Source: Bacilli bacterium
GTDB taxonomy: Bacteria > Bacillota_I > Bacilli_A > RFN20 > CAG-826
Direction of reading: 5' to 3'
Assembly: GCA_017447305.1 (NCBI GenBank)
Contig: JAFSNY010000063.1
Coordinates: 1-38,600 of the forward strand
Length of the DNA: 38,600 nucleotides
Shown: one piece after another, positions 20,340-38,600 of the stretch
Numbering within the stretch: position 1 is the first letter of the stretch
Layout: every line of letters starts with the position of its first letter
The notes under the pieces: generated by a model
The model's database searches: none
Told to the model about the DNA's origin: nothing
What the model saw: only the letters and a program-made list of their open reading frames with translations
Made by a program: the position numbers and the translations under genes

Positions 20340-22781
20340 TTAATTTGCTGGAGTGAGAGTAATATGGCTATTTCCACTTGATTCAATATAGAAATTAACG
20401 ATATATTCTCCTGCTGATTCGACTACAAAGTTGTCTCCATTTGCATCGCCATACCAAGCATTAATACTTGAGACGACTTTGATTTGACATGCTTCTGTGA
20501 ATGTATAAACGATAGTGTAGTGATTGCTATCTTCTGAATCAACGGTCATAAGGCAATTTTCATCATTTGTTGTCCAGCCATTGAATGAACCAGTGAGATA
20601 ATATGTAACTTCAACTGGATCAAGATTGTCGGTTTTTTCTAAAACGATAACATCGGCTTCGTTTAATGCATCAAGATGTAAATGAACTGTGTAAACACCA
20701 GGTTCAGCGGCAACTTCATTATTGCCCATTCCATCTGGATACCAAGTGTTTTCACTAGACATGCACTTTAATTCTTGTCCGGCTTGTAATTCAAGGCCTG
20801 CGAATGTGTAGTGATTGGCATCTTCTGAATCAACAGTCATGGCGTAGTTAGAGTCTAATTGGCCCCAGCTGTTGAATGAACCAACAACATAATAAGTAAG
20901 GGATGGTGTATCTTCTACGACAGTGAACCAAACCCAACGAACAACAGCGTTATAATTGTCGTCTTCGGTGACATGGACGTGATATGCATAAGTTCCGCCG
21001 GCAACCATATCTGCTTTGGCAACTTTTGCTTCAGTGTCATTGTTCATGTAGAATTCTTCGACTGTTGCGTCATTAACATCAATTTCATAGTTGAAATCTG
21101 GAATGCTAGAGACTTCAAAGCTTCCTGCTCCACCATTTGCTGTGTTGGTTTCTTCACCATATTTAATGGTGATGACTGGGGTAACTTTTTCACCAGAAAT
21201 GACAGTAAACCAAACCCAACGGACGACTGCGTTATATTTGGCATCTTCAGTAACGATGACACGGTAAGCATAAGTTCCACCAGCAACCATATTTGCTTTT
21301 TCAACTTGTGCATCAGTGTCATTGTTCACATAGTATGCTTCGACTGTTGCATCGTTGACATCGATTTCATAGGTGAAATCTGGGATAGCGTTATCTTTAA
21401 AGCTTCCTGCTCCACCATTTTCGGTATTATTGACTTCACCATACTTGATAGTGATAACAGGGGTAGTTTTTTCTACTGGTGTAGCTTCGGTAACTGTGAA
21501 CCAAACCCAACGAACAACAGCGTTATAATTGTCGTCTTCGGTGACATGGACGTGATATGCATAAGTTCCGCCGGCAACCATATCTGCTTTGGCAACTTTT
21601 GCTTCAGTGTCATTGTTCACATAGTATGCTTCGACTGTTGCATCGTTGACATCGATTTCATAGGTGAAATCTGGGATAGCGTCGGCTGGGAAAGATCCTA
21701 TTCCAGTGTTTGTTGTGTTAACTTCTTCACCATACTTAATGGTGATGACTGGGTCGGTTTTCGCACTAGAAATGACATTGAACCAAACCCAACGGGCAAC
21801 TGCGTTATAATCATCATCTTCTAATACGTTGACATGGTAGGAATAGGTGTATCCAGCTTCCATTTCATCTTTATCAACTCGACCATAATCATCGAATTCT
21901 TTTTGATAGAATTCTTCGACTGTTGCATCGTTGACATCAATTTCATAGGTGAAATCTGGGATAGCGTTATCTTTAAAGCTTCCTACTCCACCATTTGCTG
22001 TGTTGGTTTCTTCACCATATTTAATGGTGATGACTGGGGTAACTTTTTCACCAGAAATAACTGTGAACCAAACCCAACGGACTACTTGATTATATTTAGC
22101 GTCTTCAGTAACGATGACACGGTAAGCATAAGTGCCACCAGCAACCATTTCTGCTTTTTCAATTTCGGTTTCTGTAGAATTATCGACATAGCAAGCTTCA
22201 ACTGTTGCGTCATCGACGTCGATTTCATAAGTGAAATCTGGGATAGCATTATCTGCGAATGATCCAGCGCCACCATTTTCTGTATTGACTACATGAAGAT
22301 ACTTAATGGTTACAACTGGTGTAATTTTTGCTGGAAGAGATTCTTCGGATTCTGCTGGTTCAGATTCAGGTGGTAATTCTTCACTACTTGGTTCTGATTC
22401 AGGTGGTAATACTTCAGAGCCTGGTTCTGATTCTTCAGTAGGAACACTTTCTTCTGCAGGTTCTGATTCTGCTGGAACTGATTCTTCAGCAGGTTCTGAT
22501 TCTGCTGGGGTAGATTCTGCTGGAACTGATTCTTCAGCAGGTTCACTTTCGGCTGGTTCGCTTTCTTCAGGAACGGATGTCTCTGAAGGGATAACTGATT
22601 CTTCTTCGGATTCAACTGGTTCTTCTGAAGATTCAATTACTGGAGTGCTTTCGCTCACTTGTGATGTTTCGCTGATAGATGATTCTTCACTCTTGTTACT
22701 ATCTCCGCCTTTTTTACGGACGGAACAAGCAGTGAGCATCATGGCAGCAGATAACAATAATATCAATGGTTTTTTGCTCAT
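20340..22781 (-). CDS. Repeat-rich surface lipoprotein with GSFNGW carbohydrate-binding-like domains
   Basis: An 813-residue lipoprotein (lipobox LTAC). After the lipidated Cys comes a disordered Ser/Glu/Pro linker (to about residue 147), then five near-identical repeats of about 95 residues (148-618), each running from TPVITIKYGE through IPDFTYEIDVNDATVE to VVRWVWFTV. The C-terminus has two related domains (622-813) starting YYVVGSFNSW and YYLTGSFNGW, resembling starch/glycogen-binding CBM folds. I infer a stalk displaying glycan-binding tips. The repeat itself I do not recognise. ATG at 22781 is preferred over a TTG at 22787. It is last in the ABC operon, its Shine-Dalgarno lying inside the ATPase gene end. 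Confidence 0.8.
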   Translation of the reverse strand: MSKKPLILLLSAAMMLTACSVRKKGGDSNKSEESSISETSQVSESTPVIESSEEPVESEEESVIPSETSVPEESEPAESEPAEESVPAESTPAESEPAEESVPAESEPAEESVPTEESEPGSEVLPPESEPSSEELPPESEPAESEESLPAKITPVVTIKYLHVVNTENGGAGSFADNAIPDFTYEIDVDDATVEACYVDNSTETEIEKAEMVAGGTYAYRVIVTEDAKYNQVVRWVWFTVISGEKVTPVITIKYGEETNTANGGVGSFKDNAIPDFTYEIDVNDATVEEFYQKEFDDYGRVDKDEMEAGYTYSYHVNVLEDDDYNAVARWVWFNVISSAKTDPVITIKYGEEVNTTNTGIGSFPADAIPDFTYEIDVNDATVEAYYVNNDTEAKVAKADMVAGGTYAYHVHVTEDDNYNAVVRWVWFTVTEATPVEKTTPVITIKYGEVNNTENGGAGSFKDNAIPDFTYEIDVNDATVEAYYVNNDTDAQVEKANMVAGGTYAYRVIVTEDAKYNAVVRWVWFTVISGEKVTPVITIKYGEETNTANGGAGSFEVSSIPDFNYEIDVNDATVEEFYMNNDTEAKVAKADMVAGGTYAYHVHVTEDDNYNAVVRWVWFTVVEDTPSLTYYVVGSFNSWGQLDSNYAMTVDSEDANHYTFAGLELQAGQELKCMSSENTWYPDGMGNNEVAAEPGVYTVHLHLDALNEADVIVLEKTDNLDPVEVTYYLTGSFNGWTTNDENCLMTVDSEDSNHYTIVYTFTEACQIKVVSSINAWYGDANGDNFVVESAGEYIVNFYIESSGNSHITLTPAN
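20920..22335 (-). repeat. Five tandem about 285-base coding repeats
   Basis: The marker AACCAAACCCAACG recurs at 20926, 21208, 21499, 21781 and 22066, giving periods of 282, 291, 282 and 285 bases. Long stretches are identical between copies, for example around 20926-21020 and 21499-21610, pointing to recent duplication or gene conversion. Confidence 0.95.
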
Positions 22782-22787
22782 AAGCAA

Positions 22788-24275
22788 CTAATCCTCCTTT
22801 TTTAGAATTGACTTTTCACCATTAAAATCTTCAAATAAATGAATTTTAATATTGTTAAACTTTAGATATATTATATCTCCTTTCTGATAATTTAATCTAT
22901 CTTGAACTTTGATAACAAAGCTTGTGCTTGATTCATGGATTGTATCATTATCCTTAAAAAAGTCTGTATATATCAGTGTTTCGCTTCCTAAAGTCTCACA
23001 TAATTTCACGTATACAGGAATACCTTTTTTATCTTCTGAAAGAGTAACATCTTCGCTTCTGATTCCGAAAATTATTTGTTTTTCTTCTTCACTTAGATAT
23101 TCTTCATCAACCTTTCTTATTTCCTTAAGAGGGACTTTGTAGTCATTATCGTTAGGGAGTTTAAGCAAGAGGTGATCTTTTTCTTTTTTCATCATAATTT
23201 CTAAGAAATTCATTTGTGGAGTTCCTAAAAATCCTGCGACAAAGCGGTTAGCAGGGTAGTCGTAAAGGTTAGTTGGAGTATCGATTTGTTGGACCACTCC
23301 ACCTCTCATGACGACGATTCTTGTTCCCATTGTCATCGCTTCAACTTGGTCGTGAGTAACGTAGATGAATGGGACATCGAGTTTATTATAAAGATTAGTT
23401 ATTTCCACACGCATCTGAGCGCGTAGTTTAGCGTCCAGATTGGATAATGGTTCATCGAGAAGGAAGATTTTTGGAGTTCTAACAATCGCACGACCTAGGG
23501 CCACTCTTTGACGTTGGCCACCACTCATGGCTTTCGGGCGACGGTTAAGTAATTCTTCGATATCGAGAATCTTCGCAGCGTCTTTCACTCTTTTATCAAT
23601 TTCTTCCTTTGGAAGATGTTTATCTACGAACAAAGGAACCTCGGTTATAGAGTAATAGTCATAGTCCTTTTTAATCTCTTCAATGCGTTGATTATAAGTA
23701 TCAAGATTCTTTTGATCGAAACGATTCTCAAGTTTTTCTAATTTGAGTTTTTTCTTTTCTAACTCTTTTTCATCACTTGTTTGTTCAATTTCAAGTTTTA
23801 AAGCTTCAATTTGCTCTTTGAGTTTATTAAGTCGAATGATGGCTTTAATGGTTTTTCTTTCTTCTTGTTTAATCGCTCTTAAAAGCTTCTTATCAATTCC
23901 CATCTTTGGTGTTCCATCAGGATTTAACAAAGGTGTAGGTACCTTGATATTTTTTAAACCAAAGGACATATTTTCATATGCGGTCATATGTGGGTATAGG
24001 GCGTAATTTTGGAAAACCATCGCGATATTACGGTATTTAGGTTCAACGCGATTCATTAATTCATCATCGATATAAATATTACCTTTAGAGATATCTTCAA
24101 GTCCGGCAATCATCCTTAGTGTTGTAGATTTACCACATCCAGAAGGTCCGACAAAGACGACGAATTCTTTGTCCTTTATTTCAAGAGAAAAATCGGAGAC
24201 AGCGAGAACATCGGGATTCTTTTTATTTTTTCCCGGATAGATTTTACTTACTGATTCAAGTTTAAGTTTGGACAT
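22788..24275 (-). CDS. ugpC: Sugar ABC transporter ATPase (MalK/UgpC/MsmX family) with coiled-coil insertion
   Basis: The energy-coupling ATPase of the carbohydrate importer. Walker A is GPSGCGKST (residues 43-51), the Q-loop [10 protein letters not shown] follows, the signature MSGGQ starts at residue 250, Walker B is [13 protein letters not shown] and the switch His is in [10 protein letters not shown]; a C-terminal MalK-type regulatory domain covers about 355-495. The helical domain carries about 115 extra residues (about 112-226), Lys/Glu-rich with heptad-like Leu spacing, between YENMSFGLK and [16 protein letters not shown]. Mollicutes UgpC proteins are known for similar expansions. The gene sits in the operon, 14 bases after the ROK gene. 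Confidence 0.95.
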
Positions 24276-24289
24276 AAATAATCTCTCCT

Positions 24290-25438
24290 TTATTCAGCGG
24301 ACTTATTGATAATCTTCTTTAACACTTTATCCATTCCAACATAGGAAGCACCTAAGATTTCGATATCACTATCGAAAAGACTGAAGGTCACTTCTGGCTG
24401 GTTGATTAAATCTTTTAATTCTTCATTTACTGCGAAAAGATATTCATCTTTAAAGAATGTCACTCTTCCTGATAAGACGTATTTTGCGATATCCATGACT
24501 TCGATGAATTCTCTCAATGATTTGCCTAAGATATGGGCGGAATTTATAACTAATTGATGGATATCCTTGTTATTTTCATATAATTTGAATAATTCATCGC
24601 GGTTAATTTTCTTATCTAACATCTTGCTAGCTTGGTCGCATAGACTTCTTAAAGAGATGAATTCGTCGATAGGGAGATATTGATTATCTTTATGATATTT
24701 AATTAATCCAAATTCGCCAGCGTATCCTAAATCTCCGGTGAAGAGTTTAGAATTGATAAAGATTGCTCCTCCAACACCATAATCAATAGAGAGATAGCAA
24801 GCATTATTGACGTCTTTTAGATTTCCAGAGTATTGCTCTCCGATAGCTTGGAGATTGATATCATTAATGAGGGTGATATCAACATTTGGGAATTCTCCTA
24901 AGAAGGCATTTTGGATATAGTTCTTTTCTTTAAATAGTTCGGAATCAAATTGCTTGGATAACGCAAGTTCTCCAGTCTTTAAATTAACTCTTCCTGGGAC
25001 GGAGATAACGATATGAAGTATCGTTTGTTTTTGAATATCTTCACCGATTAATTTTTTGGTTTCATCGACGATATAGTGAATGGCTTCCGCGTCATATTTT
25101 TCAATTGGGATATCGCTCTTTTTGATGATTTGATGATGTAAATCACTGATAGCGATAACCGCATGTAAATTGGAAATATTAATAGAAAGGATATATCCAT
25201 AGGTTGGATTAATCTCATAGAGCACTCTTTTACGGCCATATCCACTTATTGAGGTGGATTCTTTAATACGAATAATTCCTAATTTCTCTAAGGATTTGAT
25301 AATCGAAGAAATTGTCGCGTTGCTTAAAGAGAGTTCGTCGGCTAGTTCAGTTCCAGAATATGGACCTTCACTAAGCATTTGAAGCACTAATGAGCTATTG
25401 AGTTCGCGTGAATAAGTTTGATCTTTTCCGATTTTCAT
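24290..25438 (-). CDS. ROK-family transcriptional regulator
   Basis: A 382-residue regulator. The N-terminal winged helix-turn-helix (about residues 12-75) contains [29 protein letters not shown], and a ROK sugar-kinase-like domain follows (about 80-375) with the phosphate-binding [26 protein letters not shown]. The usual cysteine zinc motif of ROK proteins after that segment is absent; [14 protein letters not shown] takes its place. It probably senses an imported sugar and controls the surrounding operon (inference). It lies inside that operon, five bases after the GLUG lipoprotein gene and 14 before the ATPase gene. Confidence 0.92.
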
Positions 25439-25443
25439 TTTGA

Positions 25444-28400
25444 TTATCCTATTAATCCAAATCTACTTCCATTATATGTACAGGCGATGAGGGTTCCACC
25501 TTCATTAGCTGCGGCAAATCTACCTGTTCTTAATCCATCTTTAGTGGAATATGAAACCTCATCACCGTTAAGAACAACGCATGATTTAAAGGTGATGTTT
25601 TCTAGATATGCATTCGCTCTTAACGTTCCAGCGAAGCATCCGTTCCATGAATTAGCGGTAACTTTGATGTTTTCAAATGTTACATCGTAGATTTCTCCGT
25701 TAAATGATGAGAAGAAACCAACCGCATATTTTGAGACACGATAGTTATCTTCTTTTTGTTGATCAGTTAATGTGAGATATCTTTCGTTATCGTTAATGAC
25801 AGCGTTTTTAATCGTATGACCAAAGCCATAAATCTTTCCATTAAAGACGTATTCAATGATGTTATCTCCAACAACACCGATGGAATAGATTTCTTCTCCG
25901 TTAAAGTCAATATCATCGGTTAATACGTAGGTTTTACTATAGTTTTCATATCTTGAAGCATCATATGTTTGGATGTTGAAATATGTTTTGAAGTCTTCTG
26001 CGCTACTAAGAGCGATATAGTTAGTGACATCACTTTCTTTAATTCTTTCATGAGTTAGGTAGACAGAAGAGAAACGATAATAGTCACCATTCTTTAAATT
26101 GACAACAAAGTTAAGCTCAACATCAGGTTTAGCTTCCATGATTGATTGAGGGATGGTGATAACGTGTTCAGTGATGTCGACGTTAATCTCTTCGTTTTCA
26201 CAAAGGACCACCGCATCAGTTAAATTAACTTTATCTGGGAAGGTGATAACAAAGTCTTTATTTGTTTCTCCTTGATAGATAACATGCATACCAATACTTA
26301 AATATTTAGGTTGAACAACGGATACGTTTTTCATCTTTGTTTTATTTGTCGCAGTCACTCTGACACCGAAGTTATAGACACCATAGGCTTCAACTTCATC
26401 AGAGACTCTTAAGATATCTCCATCGATTGATACACCACCGACATCGCTTGTAAGTGTCCAGACCTTCTTTTGATTAGCTGTTTCTGGGAGAATGGTGGCG
26501 TTTAATTTATATGAATGTCCAGCATATACTTTCATTGGGAAATCACTATCAATAGATAAGGATTCGATTTCATCGTAAAGATGGAATTCTTTTTCATCTT
26601 CGAGAGTTACATTATCAATAGTTAAGGATAAACGGACTTTAAATGATTTACTTAATGCATCTTTAGTTATTAAAGTGAAGCCATCAGCCACCACTCCTAA
26701 ATCATCACATGTGAGGACGAGCAAATCTTCGTATCTTTCCGTGAGATAATCTGGAAGAAGAATATAGGTGATTTCGATATCTTCACCAAGCGTGCAATCG
26801 GTGGTTTCATTACTAATTTTTAGAGAATAAGGATAGAAGAATTCAATTGATGGTTTTAAGCTTGGAAGAGCTTCTAAACTTAAGTTCCATGCCTCTTCAC
26901 TGAAGTTAAGATTATATGAGTCGGCAATGAATTCAGCGAGGCTATCATACAGTTTACAGTGATCTCCATCAATTCCAGTGGATAAAACTGGCCAAACGGT
27001 TGAGATGGCGTAGCAATTACTCATTCTGCCTTCATTAAATCCAACAAAGGCTCCGGTATCATCGCCTTCTCCATCAACTTTTCCAATGGCGTAGCAGTTC
27101 TCAACAGTGCCGAGGTTTCTGCCGATGAATCCACCAATCATATGGTAGGTGTTTTCACCAATGTTATTGGAGATATTAACATTAGCCCAACAGTTGGTGA
27201 TTTCTCCTTCACTAACTCCGACGAATCCACCAGCGAAGGAACAGACATTACTTTGTGTTAAACCAACAACACCAAGGTTTTTGATTGTCGCGAGATTATG
27301 GACATATCCGAATAATCCAGCGTTAAATCCTTGTTCATCGTGACGATTGATATATAAGCCACTGATGGTGTAACCATTTCCATCAAATGTTCCTTTGAAG
27401 GCAAAGTTATAAGCTGTGCCATCTAAAACATCACGATATGTTCCAATTGGGTTCCATCCTTTTCCATCGTTATATCCTTCTCCACCTTCGGATAGATATG
27501 TTGTTAAATCGATATCGTTTCCTAGGACATAATATCCGCCTAAGGAGACTTCATCATTGTTGATGGAGGCTAAATCTTTCGCGGTTTTAACAATCTTTGT
27601 TGCTTTAATTAAGTTTAGATAAACGTTGTTACGAGGAGTGACGACTGTTAAAGTGTTTTCTCCAACATTGCATTCGTTCACTAAAGAAGCGCGAATAGAT
27701 AATTGATGTGTTTCTTCGTTATATGTGTATTGACCCGCGCCGATTTCTTTACGATTCTTAAGAATGCGTAAGACTTTGTGTGGAAATTCATTTGAATTAA
27801 CATCTGAGAAATCAAGGAAATAAATAAGGGATTGGGTCGCATCATCTTCTGATACTTGCTTTGCGGTTAAGGTCTTAGCAAGATGAGTTTTTGCAACTTT
27901 AAAGACTTTAGAAGCACTCGCTCCATTAGAAGATGCGATAACTTCAAAAGATAAGTTTTCTTCGGCAGCGTGCGTATAAGAAATCATTCCATTTGATGAA
28001 TCGATGGTAATGCCGCGATATGTTTCCTTTAAAGAATATGTGATGGATGAATTCGTGCTGGAATTAGCGATGACATAATCTCCATCGCAAAGGTAATCAC
28101 TTATTTCAACAAAGGTGATAGTTGGGGTCGGGATAACTTGAAGTAAATTAATGACAACAGGGTTAGAAGTTAGCTCACCTTTTTTAGCTTGGTAAAGAAC
28201 TTGAGAATAGTTAGGAACATCCTCAGAATAGGTGATGACTCCACTATTTTCGTTTAAAGAGACATTATCGGGGATTTTTCCAAGGAAGGAATAAACGACA
28301 TCTTTGGAATGTTGTTTAACCACCACTTTGTCACCTGAATAAATGGAATATTCATCTTGAGCGAATGTTAAGCCATCCTCTTTAGATGAGCATCCACTTA

Positions 28401-28452
28401 GCAAAGATGCTGAAAAGATAAGAGTTGATAAGAGATAAAGAAGTTTTTTCAT
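25444..28452 (-). CDS. Large surface lipoprotein with GLUG-type repeats
   Basis: A 1002-residue lipoprotein (lipobox LSGC). Two N-terminal cadherin/Ig-like domains with TYSEDVPNYSQ-style sequence come first. GLUG-motif repeats follow at about 365-490 (GGFVGVSEGEITNCWANV, GGFIGRNLGTVENCYAIG, GAFVGFNEGRMSNCYAI), a fold seen in beta-helical adhesins and glycan-binding proteins. Further Ig-like domains occupy the centre, and a second GLUG-like patch lies near the C-terminus (FFSSFNGEIYDVTFENI). I infer a cell-surface binding role. Its ATG overlaps the stop of the upstream permease (ATGA), so it belongs to the transporter operon. Confidence 0.82.
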   Translation of the reverse strand: MKKLLYLLSTLIFSASLLSGCSSKEDGLTFAQDEYSIYSGDKVVVKQHSKDVVYSFLGKIPDNVSLNENSGVITYSEDVPNYSQVLYQAKKGELTSNPVVINLLQVIPTPTITFVEISDYLCDGDYVIANSSTNSSITYSLKETYRGITIDSSNGMISYTHAAEENLSFEVIASSNGASASKVFKVAKTHLAKTLTAKQVSEDDATQSLIYFLDFSDVNSNEFPHKVLRILKNRKEIGAGQYTYNEETHQLSIRASLVNECNVGENTLTVVTPRNNVYLNLIKATKIVKTAKDLASINNDEVSLGGYYVLGNDIDLTTYLSEGGEGYNDGKGWNPIGTYRDVLDGTAYNFAFKGTFDGNGYTISGLYINRHDEQGFNAGLFGYVHNLATIKNLGVVGLTQSNVCSFAGGFVGVSEGEITNCWANVNISNNIGENTYHMIGGFIGRNLGTVENCYAIGKVDGEGDDTGAFVGFNEGRMSNCYAISTVWPVLSTGIDGDHCKLYDSLAEFIADSYNLNFSEEAWNLSLEALPSLKPSIEFFYPYSLKISNETTDCTLGEDIEITYILLPDYLTERYEDLLVLTCDDLGVVADGFTLITKDALSKSFKVRLSLTIDNVTLEDEKEFHLYDEIESLSIDSDFPMKVYAGHSYKLNATILPETANQKKVWTLTSDVGGVSIDGDILRVSDEVEAYGVYNFGVRVTATNKTKMKNVSVVQPKYLSIGMHVIYQGETNKDFVITFPDKVNLTDAVVLCENEEINVDITEHVITIPQSIMEAKPDVELNFVVNLKNGDYYRFSSVYLTHERIKESDVTNYIALSSAEDFKTYFNIQTYDASRYENYSKTYVLTDDIDFNGEEIYSIGVVGDNIIEYVFNGKIYGFGHTIKNAVINDNERYLTLTDQQKEDNYRVSKYAVGFFSSFNGEIYDVTFENIKVTANSWNGCFAGTLRANAYLENITFKSCVVLNGDEVSYSTKDGLRTGRFAAANEGGTLIACTYNGSRFGLIG

Positions 28453-29342
28453 CCTTTGAGTCCCCCTGCATTTGTTGATTCGATAATCTTCTTTTGGAAG
28501 ATGAGATATAAGACGAGGATTGGGAAAACCGCAATCATCATAGAAGCAAAGATTTGTGGGTAGTTACCGCTGTTCGCGGTCTGAAGTGATTGAAGACCAA
28601 CGGCTAAGGTGACATGTCCTCTTGGGAGATATAGTCTTGGAGTCGCATAGTCATTCCAATAAGCAATACTTTGTAAAACCGAGCAGGCGATTAATGATCC
28701 ACGACACTGCGGCAAGACGACACGGACAAAGGTTTTAAACCTTCCGCAGCCATCTATTGATGCAGCTTCTAAGTAAGAATTAGAAACTGATGAGAACGAA
28801 GAATATAGCAAGATAAAGTTAAAGCCAAACGCTCCAGAATATAAGAAGAGGATGCCCATAAAGGCATTATCTCCATCCAGATGGAGTTTTTGCATCATTT
28901 GGACCTGAGCTGGTAAGGTACCAACAATTGGGACAATCATCGTGAAGATAGCAACACCATAGATGATTCCTCTACCTTTGAACTTAAATTTAGCTAGGAC
29001 ATAAGCAGCGCAAGATGAGAAAAATAAATTAATTATTGTTCCTAGGACAGTAAGTAGAACACTCATAAGAATCATGTTAGCGATACTTTGTCCATCAATC
29101 GTGAATTTTAAGATTTCAATAAAGTTCATCCCGTAAAATTCTTTAGGAAAACCGAAGATGTTAAGATCGAATTCTTCGCCTTTCTTAAAGGAAGATATGA
29201 GCATCCAAATAAATGGGAATAGTAATGAAGCGGCGTAAATAAAGAAGATAGCGAAAACAACCCATTTGGTGACATGATAGGCGATATCCCTCTTCTTTTT
29301 AATGTAGTGAATCCCTTGATAGGCGCGACTTAAATCTTCCAT
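28449..29342 (-). CDS. Carbohydrate ABC transporter permease (MalG/UgpE-like)
   Basis: The 297-residue membrane subunit of a CUT1-type sugar importer. Six membrane segments are visible, and the EAA loop YLEAASIDGCGRFKTFVRVVLP (about residues 195-215) is the ATPase contact. The N-terminal cytoplasmic stretch is typical of MalG-type subunits. It pairs with the upstream permease, whose stop it overlaps by one base (TAATG), and with the solute-binding lipoprotein encoded divergently at 31912. Substrate is inferred to be a beta-glucan oligosaccharide from the neighbouring GH16 and GH94 genes. Confidence 0.95.
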   Translation of the reverse strand: MEDLSRAYQGIHYIKKKRDIAYHVTKWVVFAIFFIYAASLLFPFIWMLISSFKKGEEFDLNIFGFPKEFYGMNFIEILKFTIDGQSIANMILMSVLLTVLGTIINLFFSSCAAYVLAKFKFKGRGIIYGVAIFTMIVPIVGTLPAQVQMMQKLHLDGDNAFMGILFLYSGAFGFNFILLYSSFSSVSNSYLEAASIDGCGRFKTFVRVVLPQCRGSLIACSVLQSIAYWNDYATPRLYLPRGHVTLAVGLQSLQTANSGNYPQIFASMMIAVFPILVLYLIFQKKIIESTNAGGLKG

Positions 29343-30328
29343 TAGAAATCCACTCCTTCATATTTTTTCGATAAATAGTGCCTAGTTAAAAGAATAACTG
29401 GCGCCCAAATCATTGACATCATTAAGCCAAAGGCCGAGGCACGACCAAACGATGAGCCATCTCCTGCTGCATCAAGGAAGATTGACATCGAGATGGTATA
29501 GGCTGCAGCGGTATTTTCACTAGTGAGTAATAATGGTTGGAGATATAAAGTTAAGACATTAGTCATTCCAAGGACAACTAAGGTAACAACGGTTGGCCAA
29601 ATACAAGGGATAACGACGTGAATGAATTCTTTAAAATATCCAGCGTTATCAAGCTGTGCAGATTCAAATAATTCCTTTGGAATTCTTCCAATCGCACCTG
29701 AGATAAGGATGATGTTATATCCTAGACCCGCCCAGATGAGATAGAGGATAACCATGAAGGAACAATATGGGGCGTTAGCGAAGAATCCAGCGGGGAATCC
29801 TAAGAAACGCATAAAGCCATATAAATATCCATAGTTTCCATCAAACGTTGTTTTAAAGGCAAATGTTAAGGCGACAACAGGAATGATGTTAGGAAGGAAG
29901 AATATCGCTCTAAAGACATTAGCGAACGCCATCTTCTTATGAAGGAAATATGAGAAGATTAATGATAATGGTAAAGAGATAAAGACGGTAATAATACCAA
30001 TTGATAAGGAATTTAGTAGAACTAAACCAGTATCATTAATCCATGTCACACCCGAGTCATGTTTCGTGCTATGGAAGAGATCATCAAAATATTGGGTAAA
30101 GTTAGCAAATCCCCATGAAGTATTGTTGTAGATATCTGTTACTCTAAAGGCATTTAAGATGGACTGAATATTGACAAAAGACCACGTTAAGACAAATTGA
30201 GCGACTGGATAAAGAAGCATGAGAATAATGAAAATATAATCTCTTTTTCTTCGAGACATATGATGATTAACATATTTCGGTCTTTCTCTAACGATAGAAT
30301 CTATATGAACACTACTCAGGTTTTCCAT
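29342..30328 (-). CDS. Carbohydrate ABC transporter permease (MalF/UgpA-like)
   Basis: The 328-residue partner permease, with six membrane segments and an EAA-type loop ELFESAQLDNAGYFKEFIHVVIP. The N-terminal basic segment SRRKRDYIF leads into the first helix. Only one base separates it from the GH16 gene before it, and it overlaps the MalG-type gene after it. Together with that permease and the UgpC-type ATPase it completes the membrane part of the importer. No gene for the binding protein sits within this operon; the only candidate in the window is the divergent lipoprotein. Confidence 0.95.
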   Translation of the reverse strand: MENLSSVHIDSIVRERPKYVNHHMSRRKRDYIFIILMLLYPVAQFVLTWSFVNIQSILNAFRVTDIYNNTSWGFANFTQYFDDLFHSTKHDSGVTWINDTGLVLLNSLSIGIITVFISLPLSLIFSYFLHKKMAFANVFRAIFFLPNIIPVVALTFAFKTTFDGNYGYLYGFMRFLGFPAGFFANAPYCSFMVILYLIWAGLGYNIILISGAIGRIPKELFESAQLDNAGYFKEFIHVVIPCIWPTVVTLVVLGMTNVLTLYLQPLLLTSENTAAAYTISMSIFLDAAGDGSSFGRASAFGLMMSMIWAPVILLTRHYLSKKYEGVDF

Positions 30329-30329
30329 T

Positions 30330-31766
30330 TTAGATCCTTTCGAGATAGAAATTATCGATGTTAATTACGGTATCAGCTTCTTGATTATAAACTTGAATTA
30401 AAATGCTATAGCAAGTTTCAGGAGCGGTGATTTCTTTGCTGATTCTTTGATAATCACTTGAGGTGATTTCAATATTATCACTTGAAATCGATGAATCAGA
30501 ATTATCACGATATCTAACAATGACTTTTGAAGATGAACCACTACTTTTAGCATCTAGTGATAGTCTAAAGTTTTGGCCAGCATAGACGGAATCGACACTA
30601 GCGGAAAGATATCCGCCTTCTTTAATAGTTGCGCCTGCTGATTCTTCATTACCATCAGTTAATGTTGGGAAACATACATCACTGATTTCAACATTCTTAT
30701 AACCAGCGAGTTTCGCGTAGCTCCATCCATATCCATCAACAACACCTTTTCTTGTGAAATATTCAAAGTCACCATTGGCGACTAAGTTAGCCTTAGGAAG
30801 GGTGATTGGTGAAGTTGGATATAAGGATTTGTTAGCAGTAGCGACAGTAACATCCGCATTCCAAGTAACGTATGGCTGGTTAAGGAATGGGAGATAAGAA
30901 ATATAATCTACGACCATGTAGTCTGTTTCAAACTGAGACATACCAACGAAGGCTGAGTTATTTGGGAACCAGTTACCAAGCCATAATTTTGATTCGAGTG
31001 ATGGGACATATGTATCACTAACTGCGGAGACATAGCCATCGATGAAATAAACGACGAGTTCAGGATCGGTGTACCAATCAAAACCAAAGGTATGGAATTT
31101 GCCATCGTTTAAATTGATAACTTTTCCGTGCGTAACGTTTTCTAAAACGACATCTTGGGAGATGGCTTTAGCTTCTGTTACATAATTAGTATTTAATATA
31201 TTTTTAAAGGATATAGAGCCACTTTGGTTTCCACCTGGTAGTTCGATATCGATTTCGTGATTATCGCGTTCTTCGCTTTCGGGGTTTTCCCTATTCGTGT
31301 ATGTCCATAAAGCGGTACACGCACCTTTTCTTAATAATGGTTTCATTTTCACTTCATAGTGGCCTGGACGGCAGTTAAATTTAGAGATGATAACCGCGCC
31401 TGTATTACGTCCGTCTTTAAGGGTTCCCACGCCTTTGACATCATTTTTGGAATAATACATGCCATTACCTCTAAGTAAGAGATAACCATCTTCTGTGTAG
31501 AAGACATTATCAGGGACAACGCCTCCGTTGCCACTTCCCCAAGCTCCACTTCCGATGAACCAATAATCGTAATTGACTCCGGTGGTGAAATCATCGAAAA
31601 CGACATTATCTTCATCGATTTGAACGCTTGAGAGTCGATAATACTCATCGCCTTGAGAAGGAGCAACGCTCTTATCAATTGGCTTTGAGTTCGTGCAGCT
31701 AAATAAAGTTAAATTGAGAATGGCAAGCAAAAAAGTGCTCGCAAAAGGTTTAAAAGTCGTTTTCAT
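30330..31766 (-). CDS. GH16-family glucanase lipoprotein
   Basis: A 478-residue surface lipoprotein (lipobox LFSC). The GH16 domain occupies about residues 45-300: the catalytic motif HEIDIELPG gives nucleophile Glu171, Asp173 and acid/base Glu175, and RPGHYEVKMKP, KFHTFGFDWY and LWLGNWFPNN are typical beta-jelly-roll strands. A C-terminal beta-sandwich (about 325-478, NLVANGDFEY to NIDNFYLERI) looks like a CBM4/CBM22-type module. GH16 covers laminarinases, lichenases and other endo-beta-glucanases; which one is not determinable here. GGAG lies five bases before the ATG. It heads the importer operon, so oligosaccharides it releases would be taken up at once. Confidence 0.93.
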   Translation of the reverse strand: MKTTFKPFASTFLLAILNLTLFSCTNSKPIDKSVAPSQGDEYYRLSSVQIDEDNVVFDDFTTGVNYDYWFIGSGAWGSGNGGVVPDNVFYTEDGYLLLRGNGMYYSKNDVKGVGTLKDGRNTGAVIISKFNCRPGHYEVKMKPLLRKGACTALWTYTNRENPESEERDNHEIDIELPGGNQSGSISFKNILNTNYVTEAKAISQDVVLENVTHGKVINLNDGKFHTFGFDWYTDPELVVYFIDGYVSAVSDTYVPSLESKLWLGNWFPNNSAFVGMSQFETDYMVVDYISYLPFLNQPYVTWNADVTVATANKSLYPTSPITLPKANLVANGDFEYFTRKGVVDGYGWSYAKLAGYKNVEISDVCFPTLTDGNEESAGATIKEGGYLSASVDSVYAGQNFRLSLDAKSSGSSSKVIVRYRDNSDSSISSDNIEITSSDYQRISKEITAPETCYSILIQVYNQEADTVINIDNFYLERI

Positions 31767-31842
31767 CTTAACTCCATTATATTGCTTATGAAATAAATAA
31801 GAAATATATTTTTTTACAAACTGAAAAAATATTAAATTACTC

Positions 31843-31871
31843 TTTCAATAACCTCGCTATTATTTTATAAT
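31843..31871 (+). promoter_or_regulatory. Candidate promoter for the solute-binding protein-GH94 operon
   Basis: A perfect TATAAT with TTTCAA 17 bases upstream, about 40 bases before the start codon. No convincing minus-strand promoter for the GH16 operon was found in this 145-base gap, nor a clear catabolite-repression site. Confidence 0.6.
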
Positions 31872-31911
31872 ATTTCTAGACATTTTTATCTTGTTTGTAA
31901 AGGAGTCAAAA

Positions 31912-33339
31912 ATGAAAAAATCTATATTATTTCTTTTGCCTTTTGTTGTTGGAGCAACAACGCTTCTCACCTCTTGTGGTAGCACCAAAAACGATGAAAA
32001 CACCCTTAATGTAATCTGCTTAAACGCTGGTTGGGGTGCAGAATGGATTCAAGAAGCCGTCAAGATTTGGGAAAAACAAAACCCAGATTATAAGGTCAAT
32101 CTCAATGCGACAAGAGACGCTAAATCACTTATTACCGGAAACATCTATAAGAGCGGAAACGTCGATGATGTTTATATTTCCATAGGAAGCGATTGGAAGA
32201 GATACGCTGGCGGTGGAAGGCTTCTCGAACTCGATGATTTAATGAATGAAACCATTGATGGCGTTTTAGTTAAAGATAAAATTAACAATGAATATAAGAA
32301 CTCCATCTACTTCAAGAATCAAGCTGGAGAAACCCATACTTATCGTCTCCCATGGACATCAGGTATTGGTGGAATCTATTACAACAAGAAAATGTTTAGA
32401 GACAATAACTGGGAAGTTCCTACCACCTATGAGGAACTTGTCGATTTATGTGAACAAATTATCGATGAAGCAGTAATGGTTGGAGATGATCCTTCTGAGA
32501 CTGTTTATCCATTCTCTTATACAGGTGCAAATACCGACTACTTTGATTACACAGTCTTTACTTGGTGGTCACAGATTTCTGGTGTTGACGCAATTACAGA
32601 ATTTAAGAAATACACAAAAGAAAGCAAAGATAACTTTAGAGCGGATAATCCAACATACGCTGGTCTTAAGAAAGCAACTGAAATGTGGAATGATTTATTC
32701 GGTAAGAACGGAATCCACGGAAAAGTTGCCGATCAAGAAGATATTAGTAGAGATAACCACACCGCACAAAAGAACTTCCTCAACGGAAAGGCGGCGATGA
32801 TGTTTAATGGTGACTGGGTTTATAACGAAATGTTACAATACTCCACCACTCACACTCTTCCAGCTAATTTCGAACTCGGAATTATGGACACTCCAGCCTT
32901 AAGTACAGCGCAATATAAAGGTTCTGGTTATATCATTGGTGAAGACCAATATATCGCTATTCCAAAATCCACGATTAAACCTGAACTTGCTAAATCATTT
33001 GTGAAGACTTTAATGAGTGACCAAGTCATTAAGACTTTCAGCGAAAAAGCCCACGGCTTACTCGCATTCAAACTTTCCAATGATCAAAAATTCACAACAT
33101 CTGATCCATTTGTTAATTCATTACTTGAATATCGTAGTAAATTAACATCCACTTTCACAAACTTCTCTTCTTCCCCACTTTTCCTTAACGGATATGTTGA
33201 TTTCTGGGGAGCAAGCAATGGTCGTCCATTCCTCTCACTTATTAACGGAACAAGTGCGACTGTTGATAAAGCTTTTGAAAGTATCACTGCAGAAGTAAAT
33301 AGACAATGGAGTACTTGGTGTAACAATTCCGGCATGTAA
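31912..33339 (+). CDS. Sugar ABC transporter solute-binding lipoprotein
   Basis: A 475-residue CUT1-type binding protein (lipobox LTSC). It opens the mature region with ENTLNVICLNAGWGAEWIQEAVKIWEKQNPDYKVN, the SBP_bac_1 layout, with a second-lobe hallmark FLNGKAAMMFNGDWVYNEM near residue 295 and the hinge segment GSGYIIGEDQYIAIPKST. AAAGGAG is seven bases before the start at 31912. It is transcribed divergently from the permease operon and precedes the GH94 gene by two bases, so the oligosaccharide it captures is likely the substrate of that phosphorylase (inference). Confidence 0.95.
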   Translation: MKKSILFLLPFVVGATTLLTSCGSTKNDENTLNVICLNAGWGAEWIQEAVKIWEKQNPDYKVNLNATRDAKSLITGNIYKSGNVDDVYISIGSDWKRYAGGGRLLELDDLMNETIDGVLVKDKINNEYKNSIYFKNQAGETHTYRLPWTSGIGGIYYNKKMFRDNNWEVPTTYEELVDLCEQIIDEAVMVGDDPSETVYPFSYTGANTDYFDYTVFTWWSQISGVDAITEFKKYTKESKDNFRADNPTYAGLKKATEMWNDLFGKNGIHGKVADQEDISRDNHTAQKNFLNGKAAMMFNGDWVYNEMLQYSTTHTLPANFELGIMDTPALSTAQYKGSGYIIGEDQYIAIPKSTIKPELAKSFVKTLMSDQVIKTFSEKAHGLLAFKLSNDQKFTTSDPFVNSLLEYRSKLTSTFTNFSSSPLFLNGYVDFWGASNGRPFLSLINGTSATVDKAFESITAEVNRQWSTWCNNSGM

Positions 33340-33341
33340 TC

Positions 33342-35801
33342 ATGAATAAAGAAAAAACTTTACGTTTATATCAAGAAGTAAAAAGAGCATTAAAAAATAG
33401 GGAAAGCAGTTTTTCATCAACTTGCTTTTTCCTCAAGAATGACAAAGTTCTTTGTTTAGATAAGGAATATGGGGATAGTCGTCATCCATATTCTTTTGAT
33501 GGTTTAACTTTATGGGCCTATGCCTCTGGATATATCACGATTAATGAAGCGGCCTTTTATGTTATTCCGACAACACTCGAAGGAAAAGAACCTTATCTTG
33601 CTTTCTTTGGAGGAATCAAAGATAAGAAGGGATATCGTTATTTATCTATCACTGGAGTAAGCGATACCGAATATGGGAATAAAGCGGAGAAATATTGTGT
33701 CTTTACCCCTGAGTATGCACTTTATCTAAGGAAGATTGATAATGTTTTATTCTCCTTGCAAATCAGTATCAATAATAAGAAAGAAATTATCTATTCTCTA
33801 GACGCTTGGAACTTAGGAAAAAATAAAAAAACGATATACGTCTCCTCATATATTAATCCTTTACTCACACATTCTAACTATGAAAGCGAAGAGACAAAAT
33901 GGTTTAGAAAAGCTGTCATTAGCGATGATGGCGCGCTTCTTTCATGTGTCGAAGATTTATCTAGATCAATTCATCTCCATAATTATTTATTAATCAGAAG
34001 AGTGAGTGACCAAAAAGATATCCAATGTACCTCTTCGAGAATGTATTATGTCGGGAACAAGAACACGCAGCTTTCAAATTCATCATGTTTAAGAGATGGT
34101 GAATTTAAAAATCATCGTTCCACCACTCAGTTTATCGATATGGCGTGTTATGGTGATTTGATAAAAACAAGCGGGGATGTACATGCTTTTTATAAATTAT
34201 CCATCGCTTATAGTAATGAAGAACTTAAATTATTAGACCATAGTAAATTATCTCTTGAGGACGATGAGTTTGATATTAAAAAAGATAATCCAAACGATAA
34301 ATTAAAAATTAGATTTAATAACTTCAAGAATAGTGATTTATCGTCCGATTTATTTAATCAATTTATCCGTCATGTTAATTACCAAGTTGATTATTGCTCA
34401 AAAGCAAAGAATTCTTCTTTGATGCTTCTTGGAGTGAGAGATATTTCTCAAATGATTGAAGCATCTTTGATATGGAACAAGGAATTAGCGAGAGAAAAGA
34501 TTAAATATATCCTTGATTACATTGATATGAATGGACGAGCATCCAGACAGTTCTCCCCTTCTAATGAACAAGGATTATCTAAACTTGATACGAGAGAATT
34601 TATCGACCAAGGACAATGGATTATTTCGCTTGTTTATAAATATTTATGCTATACAGGGGACGTTAAAATCCTTAAAGAGAAGTGTTCTTTCTGCCATATC
34701 TTTGGTGAGCAAAAAGGATATAAATATGAAGAAAGAACTTCGGTTTATGATCACCTTAAGAGAATCATTAATTATCTAGTGTCACATATCGATAAGGATA
34801 ATGGATGTCTTCATATTTTATACGGAGATTGGAACGATGCGGTTGATGGACTAGGAAAAGGAGAGAACACCACGGATAAATTCTCTAATGGTGTTTCTTC
34901 TATGGCAACTTTCCACCTCTATAAGAATTTAGAGGAATTCATTGAGATTGCTTCTTTAGTGAACGAAGACACAAGTAATTATCTAAAGATAAAAGAAGAT
35001 TTATATCAATCAATTATCAAACATCTTTTCGTTAGAAAAGGTGATGAAGTTAAGATTGTTCATGGTTGGGGGGAAGATAAGTCTTTCTATGTTGGCTCAT
35101 TTGATGATGTTGACCATAAAGACCGCGACTCCGCAGCGTCAAATGCATTCTATGTCTTATCAGGTATTTATCAAAGAAATCCAGAATATAAGCCATATGT
35201 CTTAAAAGCTTTTAAGCGTTTAGATAGCAAATACGGAATTAGAACATTCGATGTCCCGTTTTATCCTGAAGATGCTTCAAGAGTCGGAAGAATTGTCAAC
35301 CTTCCACCTGGAACAGCAGAAAACGCAGCAACATATATTCACGCATCGCTTTTCTCCATTAAGGCTCTTTTGGAAATGAATGAAGGTGAGTTTGCCTTTG
35401 ATCAATTATATAAGGTCATACCTCTCACTCACGAGTTCATTTCCACTTCTCCTTATGTTATGCCTAACTCCTATGGATATAATCCTGATTTAGGAGTGGA
35501 CGGACAATCGATGAACGATTGGTATACAGGAAGTTCTAATACATTAATCAAAGCGATTGTGGATGATATCTTTGGAATAAAAGTGAATATTCGTGGGGAA
35601 TTAACGATTAATCCATGTGCATTCCCTGTTGAAAGTGCATCAATCACTCTTCCAATTAGAAGCAAGATAATCGAAGTTAAATATTCTAATCACGACTTAG
35701 GCCACAGAGAAATATATATTGATGGACTTAAGAGTGATAATAATCTCATTAATTTGAAAGATTACACAAAGAAAAAGATTGTTGTCGAAGTTAAAGAATA
35801 G
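33342..35801 (+). CDS. GH94-family beta-glycoside phosphorylase
   Basis: An 819-residue cytoplasmic enzyme predicted to split a beta-linked gluco-disaccharide or oligosaccharide with phosphate, giving glucose-1-phosphate. The (alpha/alpha)6-barrel domain has the general-acid motif YGDWNDAVD (residues 494-502) and PPGTAENAATYIHA, equivalent to the phosphate-site segment of cellobiose phosphorylase, then MNDWYTGSSNTLIKAIVDDIFGI near the end; the first 300 residues form the family's beta-sandwich. Cellobiose, cellodextrin and laminaribiose phosphorylases all belong here, so specificity is open. It follows the binding-protein gene by two bases and is ended by a strong terminator. Confidence 0.93.
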   Translation: MNKEKTLRLYQEVKRALKNRESSFSSTCFFLKNDKVLCLDKEYGDSRHPYSFDGLTLWAYASGYITINEAAFYVIPTTLEGKEPYLAFFGGIKDKKGYRYLSITGVSDTEYGNKAEKYCVFTPEYALYLRKIDNVLFSLQISINNKKEIIYSLDAWNLGKNKKTIYVSSYINPLLTHSNYESEETKWFRKAVISDDGALLSCVEDLSRSIHLHNYLLIRRVSDQKDIQCTSSRMYYVGNKNTQLSNSSCLRDGEFKNHRSTTQFIDMACYGDLIKTSGDVHAFYKLSIAYSNEELKLLDHSKLSLEDDEFDIKKDNPNDKLKIRFNNFKNSDLSSDLFNQFIRHVNYQVDYCSKAKNSSLMLLGVRDISQMIEASLIWNKELAREKIKYILDYIDMNGRASRQFSPSNEQGLSKLDTREFIDQGQWIISLVYKYLCYTGDVKILKEKCSFCHIFGEQKGYKYEERTSVYDHLKRIINYLVSHIDKDNGCLHILYGDWNDAVDGLGKGENTTDKFSNGVSSMATFHLYKNLEEFIEIASLVNEDTSNYLKIKEDLYQSIIKHLFVRKGDEVKIVHGWGEDKSFYVGSFDDVDHKDRDSAASNAFYVLSGIYQRNPEYKPYVLKAFKRLDSKYGIRTFDVPFYPEDASRVGRIVNLPPGTAENAATYIHASLFSIKALLEMNEGEFAFDQLYKVIPLTHEFISTSPYVMPNSYGYNPDLGVDGQSMNDWYTGSSNTLIKAIVDDIFGIKVNIRGELTINPCAFPVESASITLPIRSKIIEVKYSNHDLGHREIYIDGLKSDNNLINLKDYTKKKIVVEVKE

Positions 35802-35805
35802 ACAT

Positions 35806-35849
35806 AAAAAACCTCGTCGAGAGATTAACTCCAAGACGAGGATTTTTTT
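35806..35849. terminator. Bidirectional terminator after the GH94 gene
   Basis: CCTCGTC / GACGAGG stem with a 16-base loop and A/T runs on both sides, placed between converging genes. Confidence 0.9.
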
Positions 35850-35871
35850 ATTTAACTATATGATATCCCGC

Positions 35872-36993
35872 TTATTTTACGATTTTCTTTCTTCTAATGA
35901 ACATCACACTGATGGAAGAAATAGCAATAAGAGAAATGATGGTGATAATAAGGAATTTGTTTGAATCAGGATCAATGATCGCGAATATAGTATTTGAACT
36001 TAATGGATTAGAAATACTAATTGAATATTGATTGCAAACATATTCGAAAAATTGATAGTAATTATCACAGTGAGTTGCTGCTGCAAATGTTGGGTTGGTA
36101 ATTGCGATATTACTTAATATGGTGTTTTGAGCGGTAGATAAGTGATTATTTAAAACTTCTAATGTTGTTTTATAAGTTCCACCCTTAGAACACCAAGCAT
36201 CCTCTGACATCTTATCAAGATATCCTTTAGTGGCTTTATCTGTATTAACAGAGATTAAATTTAGTTTAGCGTTTAAAGTGTAATTATATGTCCAATAGAC
36301 AAAAGCAATCATTGCTCTTGGAGAGCCTTCTTCATTATCAGCAAGAATAAACTTAAAACTCCAGTTAAATGAATCATATCCTCCAGACCACACTCCATGA
36401 GATCCAACTTCCAATTCTCCCGAAAGAGCAAAAGTATTCTCGCCATCTATTGTTTTAATGAGGTTCCACGCTCCATCGTCATCGGTTGGAAGATGATATA
36501 AAACGTATAAATATCCAGCTTCAGCGTTCATAGAGAAATGTAAATCATTGATACCTTCAATATAATCTGCGGATTGAATGGCAAAGCCATATCCACTTGA
36601 TTGATTAGTTGCAGTGACCATTCCAGCAAAGTCATCATCAGATGCGGAAAGAGTTAATAAACCTCTCGCTTCGACTTCGCTTGCAGTTTTTCCATCAAGA
36701 TATCCGCCTAAATAGAATGAATCATCACTTCCTCTAAATCCAGAAGATACCTTCCATTCAAGGTTTGTTTGAGCGTCTTGTGTAAAAGTACTTCCCACGG
36801 TGTTTAAAGTCCATGCGGATGGATAAGCAGATTGAATTCCAGCGTTTCTCTTAAAATCGACAAATCCGTATGACACTCCTTCTGATGCTGATGCCTTAGC
36901 GATGTGACCACTATTTCTAGAAAGAACGATTCCTCCAGCAAGCGCAAGGGTTAGCGCGCTAGCTAGGAGAGTTATTTTTGTCTTATTTTTCAT
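35872..36993 (-). CDS. Secreted membrane-anchored protein with a recurrent C-terminal module
   Basis: A 373-residue surface protein I do not recognise. It has a signal peptide (KNKTK then a hydrophobic stretch, probable cleavage near AKASAS), an all-beta middle part with jelly-roll or discoidin-like texture (about 40-250), then a helical segment of about 90 residues and a C-terminal membrane helix ending in RRKK. The last 117 residues are arranged like those of the neighbouring GH16 protein. GGAGG lies eight bases before the chosen start. It follows that gene closely in the same operon, so both are probably surface partners. No catalytic motif is visible. Confidence 0.75.
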   Translation of the reverse strand: MKNKTKITLLASALTLALAGGIVLSRNSGHIAKASASEGVSYGFVDFKRNAGIQSAYPSAWTLNTVGSTFTQDAQTNLEWKVSSGFRGSDDSFYLGGYLDGKTASEVEARGLLTLSASDDDFAGMVTATNQSSGYGFAIQSADYIEGINDLHFSMNAEAGYLYVLYHLPTDDDGAWNLIKTIDGENTFALSGELEVGSHGVWSGGYDSFNWSFKFILADNEEGSPRAMIAFVYWTYNYTLNAKLNLISVNTDKATKGYLDKMSEDAWCSKGGTYKTTLEVLNNHLSTAQNTILSNIAITNPTFAAATHCDNYYQFFEYVCNQYSISISNPLSSNTIFAIIDPDSNKFLIITIISLIAISSISVMFIRRKKIVK

Positions 36994-37011
36994 TTCTAAT
37001 ACCTCCAAGAA

Positions 37012-38600
37012 TTATTGACGTTTAAAGACCATATGATAGACAAAGGACACTAGTCCAAGAACAAATACCGAGATGATAATAAGGAGGAGAATGGTTGATG
37101 AATCTTGATTAATTACCAAGTTCAAGCTTGATAAAGTAGGATTCTCGCTCCAATAATCAACTAGATACTCATATCCTTCGATATATGTTTTTGCGTAATG
37201 TTTCATGCTAGTTGCGCTTAGATAAGTGATATCTGAAGCAGAGAGATTATCATATTCAAGTTCTAATAAATCTCTTTCGCCTTGATTATATGAGCATGTC
37301 ACTCCTCCATCAAGTCTATTCATGAAATCAACTTTATTATTGATGATAATGCCGTTTAAACGATGTTCATTTACTCCATTAGTCCAAACAGTTAATGTAA
37401 AGGCAAAACGAATATATTCATATTCAAGTGCGCCTAAATCTGAGGAAGATGCACGGAAAACATATTGATCATACGTTCCGTGATTATCATTGTTAAGAAG
37501 CGCGCCCATATTCGATTGTTTTAAATTAACCCAACTTGAGCCATGATCAATGGAGTATAGAATTCTAATTTGTTGAGAGGTTGGTTCTCCATAGCAAAGT
37601 AAAGAGAAATATAGTGAGATATCAACAAATTCTTCGATATCAAACTCCATGTACATCGCTTGAGTAACATGGGTTTCACTTTCACCTATTAAAACATCGG
37701 CGATGTTATCAAAGATGTCTCCTTTACTCTTATCAATAATGGTGTCAGCAGTGGTTACTTGGCCCATAGTTACAGTGTTGTTATATTTCCTAATATGAGA
37801 TCCTCTCCAAGACATATTTTCATCGTCATATGGACTAAAGGATGCTTCATTAAAAGAGGAAGATAGGGCGGATACACCACTATTATTGTGAGTTAGGAAC
37901 CCGCATCCATCACTAACTGGATATTCTTCTGGTTCAGGAGGAATAACTTCTTCTCTACCAACATAGATGTTATCAAGTTTTAATGAAGTATCGCTGATGA
38001 AACGAACTTTGACATAGAAGCTATTGTTTGGAGCGGTAAATACTGTGTTATATGTCATATATGTATCTGAATCTAGTAAGACATCATCATGAGATAATAG
38101 TGAATCAGATTCATTATAATAGTCCACTCTTGCTGTTCCTTTTCCTTGATAATTGAAGGAGAAGTTATATGAATGATTTTTGTAAATGGAATCAATCTTA
38201 GCGTTTATTTCTGAAGAAGATGACAAAAGCGCTCCTCCAGAAGTATTTGATCCAGCGTAATCATATGATTTATTTAAAGAAACAGTGCCGGATTTATTGA
38301 TTCCAAAATTAAAATATTCCGCTTCGTTTCTATTATTGATGTAATTGAAAGTTCCGTTTGGGAAATAGTTACGTTGTTCATTTAAACCTGAGGAAGGATA
38401 TTCTTCCGCGCTTGCGGCGCCACCAGGTGAACCAGCGCTTCCTGCATCGTGGACTTGACTAAGGAATGGAGAATATTTGACATAGTCAATATCCATATAA
38501 GACTTATCAAAATCTGGAAGTCCAACAAAATCGACATTGTTAGGAATCCAGCATCCAAGCCAAAGTCTAGAAGTGATGTGTGGCATTTTGCTTGCGTCAC
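37012..38600 (-). CDS. Membrane-anchored GH16 protein, 5' part outside the window
   Basis: The reading frame stays open to the window edge; the catalytic motif lies outside. The first visible residues, SRLWLGCWIPNNVDFVGLPDFDKSYMDIDYVKYSPF, align with the end of the GH16 domain of the lipoprotein at 30330 (SKLWLGNWFPNN...DYMVVDYISYLPF). A Gly/Ala/Ser/Pro linker, a carbohydrate-binding-like beta-sandwich (NYFPNGTFNY to LKLDNIYVGR), a second beta domain with WVNLKQSNMG, and a helical module with C-terminal membrane helix and FKRQ end follow. The ATG at 38586 is internal, not the real start. It is the second GH16 in the locus, anchored by a helix rather than by lipid. Confidence 0.82.
   Translation of the reverse strand, partial: DASKMPHITSRLWLGCWIPNNVDFVGLPDFDKSYMDIDYVKYSPFLSQVHDAGSAGSPGGAASAEEYPSSGLNEQRNYFPNGTFNYINNRNEAEYFNFGINKSGTVSLNKSYDYAGSNTSGGALLSSSSEINAKIDSIYKNHSYNFSFNYQGKGTARVDYYNESDSLLSHDDVLLDSDTYMTYNTVFTAPNNSFYVKVRFISDTSLKLDNIYVGREEVIPPEPEEYPVSDGCGFLTHNNSGVSALSSSFNEASFSPYDDENMSWRGSHIRKYNNTVTMGQVTTADTIIDKSKGDIFDNIADVLIGESETHVTQAMYMEFDIEEFVDISLYFSLLCYGEPTSQQIRILYSIDHGSSWVNLKQSNMGALLNNDNHGTYDQYVFRASSSDLGALEYEYIRFAFTLTVWTNGVNEHRLNGIIINNKVDFMNRLDGGVTCSYNQGERDLLELEYDNLSASDITYLSATSMKHYAKTYIEGYEYLVDYWSENPTLSSLNLVINQDSSTILLLIIISVFVLGLVSFVYHMVFKRQ

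Follow-up and report, generated by a model that had tools for sequence, protein, structure and literature searches.

The window analysed in this study is the whole stretch of 38,600 nucleotides, which corresponds to one whole contig of a Bacilli genome of 1.59 Mb. Positions 20340-38598 hold a conserved gene set encoding a ROK regulator, an ABC transporter, a GH94 family phosphorylase and two GH16 proteins, and a lipoprotein with GLUG repeats is also encoded there (25444-28452). Two ABC permease-like genes (28449..30328, minus strand) lie next to the gene of the second GH16 protein (30330..31766, minus strand), which carries a lipobox (LFSC) and lacks the anchor module described below. The genes of an ABC sugar-binding lipoprotein (31891..33339) and of the GH94 family phosphorylase (33342..35801) are located on the plus strand. 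Two further genes on the minus strand encode the proteins under study. Protein 1 (35872..37008, minus strand) is a predicted exported protein of 378 aa, which is composed of a signal peptide, an ectodomain without Pfam match and the C-terminal anchor module. Its probable signal peptide MKNKTKITLLASALTLALAGGIVLSRNSGHIAKASA occupies 36886..36993 (minus strand), with the putative start and cleavage site set by reading for the A.A rule, and no lipobox Cys is found at its end. Protein 2 (37012..38598, minus strand) is partial, since its gene runs past the end of the contig, which is also the end of the window, and its 5' end is missing. What remains is 528 C-terminal aa of a GH16-type beta-glucanase, including the anchor module and further C-terminal domains. 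The orthologues of protein 2 have the hydrophobic N-terminus that the window copy lacks. The sequence-only reading had described two adjacent proteins with a common C-terminal module; the adjacency of the genes and the shared tail stood, but the second protein is represented by its C-terminal part only.

The same gene set was found in four other genomes, where a module-bearing GH16 gene, a phosphohexomutase-like gene (so assigned from reading its sequence) and an orthologue of protein 1 are followed by GH94, the sugar-binding lipoprotein, the lipoprotein GH16 and the permease. The gene at 29342-30328 stays adjacent to the lipoprotein GH16 in relatives. Orthologues of both window proteins retain the module, and the GH16 orthologue with the module has matches among solved 1,3-1,4-beta-glucanase structures. 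This match and the gene content therefore make the locus look like one for beta-glucan use, and its two GH16 enzymes look, judged from their sequences, to be anchored differently, one by lipid and the other by the module. The companion gene, i.e., the orthologue of protein 1, is interrupted before or within the module in G032 and G079 (L147:12311-13700, L148:12482-13800) and is whole in G065 and G086.

Likeness of the two tails and anatomy of the module

The anchor module is formed by the last 117 aa of protein 1 (tail 1; 35875..36225, minus strand) and the last 105 aa of protein 2 (tail 2; 37015..37329, minus strand), and the coordinates and motifs given for both in the sequence-only reading were confirmed. 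Each tail shows LE..(LNN/YDN)..LS, a second LS, a Tyr-rich helix, a spacer containing DS, a hydrophobic stretch of 19 residues (KD 2.65 and 2.98) and a basic tail. The conserved Cys is position 12 in both tails (36190..36192 and 37294..37296, minus strand), and the alignment column of the Cys in tail 1 is 97% Cys. The predicted membrane helix of tail 1, LIITIISLIAISSISVMFI (35896..35952, minus strand), is followed by RRKKIVK, and that of tail 2, TILLLIIISVFVLGLVSFV (37039..37095, minus strand), by YHMVFKRQ. As had been claimed, neither tail contains an LPXTG motif.

Pairwise BLASTP of tail 1 against tail 2 gave E=2e-6 over 108 columns with the membrane helix included, and the comparison was redone without this helix because membrane helices inflate such scores. 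The tail-1 family (the window tail and its orthologues) and the tail-2 family (six sequences from five genera) were then matched by hhalign with a score of 23.0 and E=7e-4; in 100 column-shuffled controls the maximum was 15.6 (mean 10.0, sd 2.0). The families match above all shuffles without the helix, therefore the likeness exceeds hydrophobic composition. A single-sequence search with tail 2 returned only tail 2 itself, so profiles were needed for finding relatives. A profile of three tails matched in 35 of 146 genomes of the window's family, many times on other proteins, and many of these matches were of a more regular form (hereafter canonical), from which profiles A4 and A6 were made. With the helix removed, the tail-2 family matched the canonical module at E=2.2e-4 with a score of 25.3, the best of 100 shuffles reaching 19.9; the value obtained with the helix (E=1.1e-9) overstated the match and was rejected as a measure of the evidence. 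The direct score of tail 1 against the canonical soluble domain was 11.8, which is within the shuffled range, and on these alignments tail 1 is tied to the canonical module indirectly, with the tail-2 family as the sole bridge. HMMs whose alignments left out tail 1 recovered it in the window (i-E of 1.2e-4 for A6 and 1e-4 for A5). By these sequence comparisons, the two window tails are divergent members of one large C-terminal module family.

The canonical module is composed of a helix, a near-invariant Cys, a W..L..YN.LS helix, a short helix, a RYDYI..KYG..NF..R helix, a linker, a membrane helix and a K/R tail, and it was single and reached the C-terminus in 104 of 104 proteins recovered from the fetched loci. 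Conserved columns run across the folded part: Phe/Tyr, Cys (97%), Gly (80%), Trp (89%), Tyr/Phe, Leu, Arg-Tyr(94%)-Asp-Tyr, Lys-Tyr, Asn/Asp-Phe and Arg. The juxtamembrane linker lacks conservation, and the least conserved residues of the module directly precede the membrane helix, which is itself conserved in composition only and is followed by a K/R-rich end. The mean net charge is -0.77 before the helix versus +3.79 after it, and it is greater after the helix in 102 of 103 tails. AlphaFold modelled a canonical tail with helices at residues 9-19, 38-46, 50-58 and 67-82, a core pLDDT mostly of 95-97 and the membrane helix at 105-134; the same helix order was predicted for window tail 2 with poor confidence (pLDDT 68). 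No resembling structure was found by fold searches in the PDB and BFVD (best E of 1.9 and 3.3), and no model of Pfam or NCBIfam describes the folded part. The proposal that the tails belong to no existing named domain thus held against Pfam, NCBIfam and PDB families. LPXTG models touch the module tails solely via the helix and the basic end.

Exactly one Cys is present in the module of 40 of the 46 complete proteins. A disulfide between this Cys and the ectodomain was considered as a general rule and was ruled out, since 10 of the 46 have no other Cys in the ectodomain. Further tail subtypes follow the same plan, namely an ARLxAWAxANGE type (L034, L073, L074, L075) and a TIxxTIxYLxxL type (L143, L149, L150, L154, L155, L158); the former matched the tail-2 family without the helix at E=0.0013.

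Distribution, cargo and the sortase-less background

Profile searches for further members, as the sequence-only reading had suggested, found many across the window's family and supported its view of a module common in the lineage, with about 11 copies in the window's own genome, at most 12 canonical matches in others and near confinement to the family. Among 196 genomes of the order, canonical profile A4 found the module in 78, of which 76 belong to the window's family; a genome had at most 12 matches, and the best match reached E=2.8e-47. When A6 was run on 392 genomes drawn evenly across the phylum, 27 were matched, all from the window's family. In the window's genome the module proteins are located on contigs C76, C74, C41 (two adjacent), C2, C11, C37, C56 and C68, in addition to the two in the window (C58); this count comes from profile searches and may be an undercount, and some of the copies match mainly via the helix and tail and belong to the subtypes. 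The named relatives are uncultured Bacilli from rumen and gut, 'Erysipelotrichaceae', 'Bacillales' and Candidatus Alloenteromonas. The module is not universal in the family, because genus g26 and most of g24 gave no canonical match with the A4 profile, though they are also sortase-less.

The proteins that carry the module are mostly equipped for export, since an N-terminal hydrophobic segment, usually with an A.A site, is present in 43 of the 46 complete ORFs. Their ectodomains are unrelated and include Big_2 and Big_3 Ig-like domains, Listeria-Bacteroides repeats (Flg_new), Endonuclease_1, an OB fold, CBM26, a hyaluronate lyase-like domain, the solute-binding SBP_bac_1 and, in window protein 2, GH16. 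The endonuclease I domain occurs in 7 of 39 module proteins (L079-L106 and the own genome), and such nucleases, if held at the surface, may contribute to nucleotide uptake by these bacteria with reduced genomes. The signal peptides of module proteins show a signature, a hydrophobic stretch ending in GVGVxxG, about 8 polar residues and then AKA, which is unusually alike across unrelated cargo; it was seen in L092, L093, L097, L099, L100 and L103 and, in the own genome, in L136, L137 and L139. This signature may direct the module proteins to one export route or site.

No sortase (PF04203) was found in 146 genomes of the family, the window's included, with the control positive in 3 of 14, and no exosortase (PF09721) in 96 genomes of the family, with a positive control. 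The suggestion that the display is sortase-independent agrees with this result. Among 57 genomes, MraY was found in 1 and the PBP transpeptidase in 3, and neither was found in the window's genome, which is 92% complete. RFN20 families without sortase and peptidoglycan have been published (PMC10868615; see also PMC7301438). The relatives suggest that the window's family is among these wall-less, sortase-less families, and most of its gut bacteria appear to have no cell wall. A single genus, g6, clearly keeps MraY and PBPs, yet has divergent tails of another subtype. The idea that the module occurs only where the wall is gone was therefore ruled out, and wall loss alone does not explain the module.

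Against the curated LPXTG model, which has a cut-off of 15.9 bits, window protein 1 scored 10.8 bits and protein 2 gave no match. Two other tails (L022 and L025) just pass this cut-off with 16.1 and 16.4 bits, via the helix; as no sortase was found in the family, such tails are a likely source of wrong LPXTG annotation.

Proposed anchoring and its alternatives

We consider it likely that the tails are divergent members of a lineage-specific C-terminal module, one that fixes exported proteins in the cytoplasmic membrane independently of sortase, which largely agrees with the sequence-only reading. The shared module, its strict C-terminal place, the varied cargo, the lack of sortase and exosortase in the family and that of wall-synthesis markers in most of it are all read from the sequences. 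In the proposed mechanism, the signal peptide would export the module protein, and about 70-90 residues would fold into a small helical domain just outside the membrane. A variable linker would then lead to a single stop-transfer membrane helix with a short K/R-rich tail inside, as in a type-I membrane protein, and the unrelated upstream enzymes and binding domains would thereby be held at the cell surface. From these features we infer the topology, the surface location and the membrane retention of the module proteins. In the window, the cargo would be the GH16 beta-glucanase and its companion protein of the beta-glucan locus; the ABC transporter would take up the products, which the GH94 phosphorylase would split.

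That the tails resemble each other only in membrane-helix and basic-tail composition, with the rest due to chance, is highly improbable. In favour of this reading, the helix contributes part of the pairwise score, and tail 1 by itself, when compared directly, does not match the canonical soluble domain significantly. Against it, none of the 100 shuffles reached the score between the soluble parts of the two tail families, the tails share the helix order and the Cys, and the module is retained in the orthologues of both proteins. We also regard as unlikely, if somewhat less so, that the module is a sorting signal for some membrane transpeptidase or protease, similar to LPXTG or PEP-CTERM, whose helix would be removed after export. 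The overall plan of a C-terminal helix and basic tail is alike, the helix by itself brings some tails up to or close to the LPXTG model, and a permissive pattern containing P lies before the helix in 12 of 103 tails, where 5.3 were expected and the maximum in 200 shuffles was 11. However, strict LPXTG occurs in 0 of 103 tails, conservation within the module is lowest in the residues directly preceding the helix, and the family gave neither sortase (0 of 146 genomes) nor exosortase (0 of 96).

A plain membrane helix would suffice to anchor a protein, which implies a further task for the conserved folded domain. Most likely this domain is a compact pedestal, with a docking role as the main alternative. 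In the latter case the anchor would be retained and its folded domain would serve as a docking or cross-linking site, either for a common partner or through an interchain disulfide via the single Cys. This is possible but doubtful in our view; it refines the membrane-anchor reading, and the confidence given to the two overlaps. The near-invariance of the Cys, mostly the only one in the module and in 10 of 46 proteins without a second in the ectodomain, is consistent with docking, and the conserved Trp, Tyr and Arg exceed the needs of a plain stalk. The aromatics and the Cys may on the other hand be simple core residues, and disulfides are unlikely in a strict anaerobe. A still wider proposal is put forward tentatively and with limited confidence, namely that an undescribed superfamily of folded juxtamembrane anchors with at least four sequence subtypes could be the general surface display of this sortase-less, largely wall-less family of gut Bacilli, and that its invariant Cys domain could dock the many different ectodomains to one another or to a partner they have in common.

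As compared to known systems, the membrane anchor proposed here shares with the LPXTG/sortase anchor (PF00746, TIGR01167) its C-terminal place, the membrane helix with basic tail and its use by many unrelated exported proteins. It differs in that LPXTG is absent, a folded domain replaces the short motif, no sortase is found in the 146 genomes of the family and the wall-synthesis markers are missing from most of it (MraY from 56 of 57 genomes and the PBP transpeptidase from 54 of 57). PEP-CTERM and related CTERM signals, which work with exosortase or archaeosortase, likewise have a C-terminal helix, a basic tail and lineage-wide use, but the 96 genomes have no exosortase and the module has no conserved motif adjoining the helix. 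Bacterial lipoproteins also anchor surface enzymes to the membrane, which is the mode of the other GH16 protein in the locus; their lipid is on an N-terminal Cys, unlike the module, and lipobox and module were never seen together, as none of 9 lipobox ORFs carries the module. Simple C-terminal type-I anchors, e.g., Listeria ActA, use Sec export, a stop-transfer helix and a basic cytoplasmic end without cleavage. Module proteins resemble them in the predicted signal peptide, the single C-terminal helix and the positive inside, and are distinguished by a conserved folded domain common to many proteins family-wide. Anchoring by a C-terminal membrane helix is already known; a conserved folded domain within the anchor, used across a whole lineage, was not found in the domain libraries or literature searched.

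The module profile is a simple tool for cataloguing surface proteins in uncultured gut bacteria, and it flags possible LPXTG mis-annotation. Up to about a dozen exported module proteins per genome argue against the published idea that few surface proteins are displayed. If the window's family belongs to the wall-less RFN20 families, the module would be another anchoring route, and it poses the question of what replaces wall anchoring once a Gram-positive lineage loses its wall.
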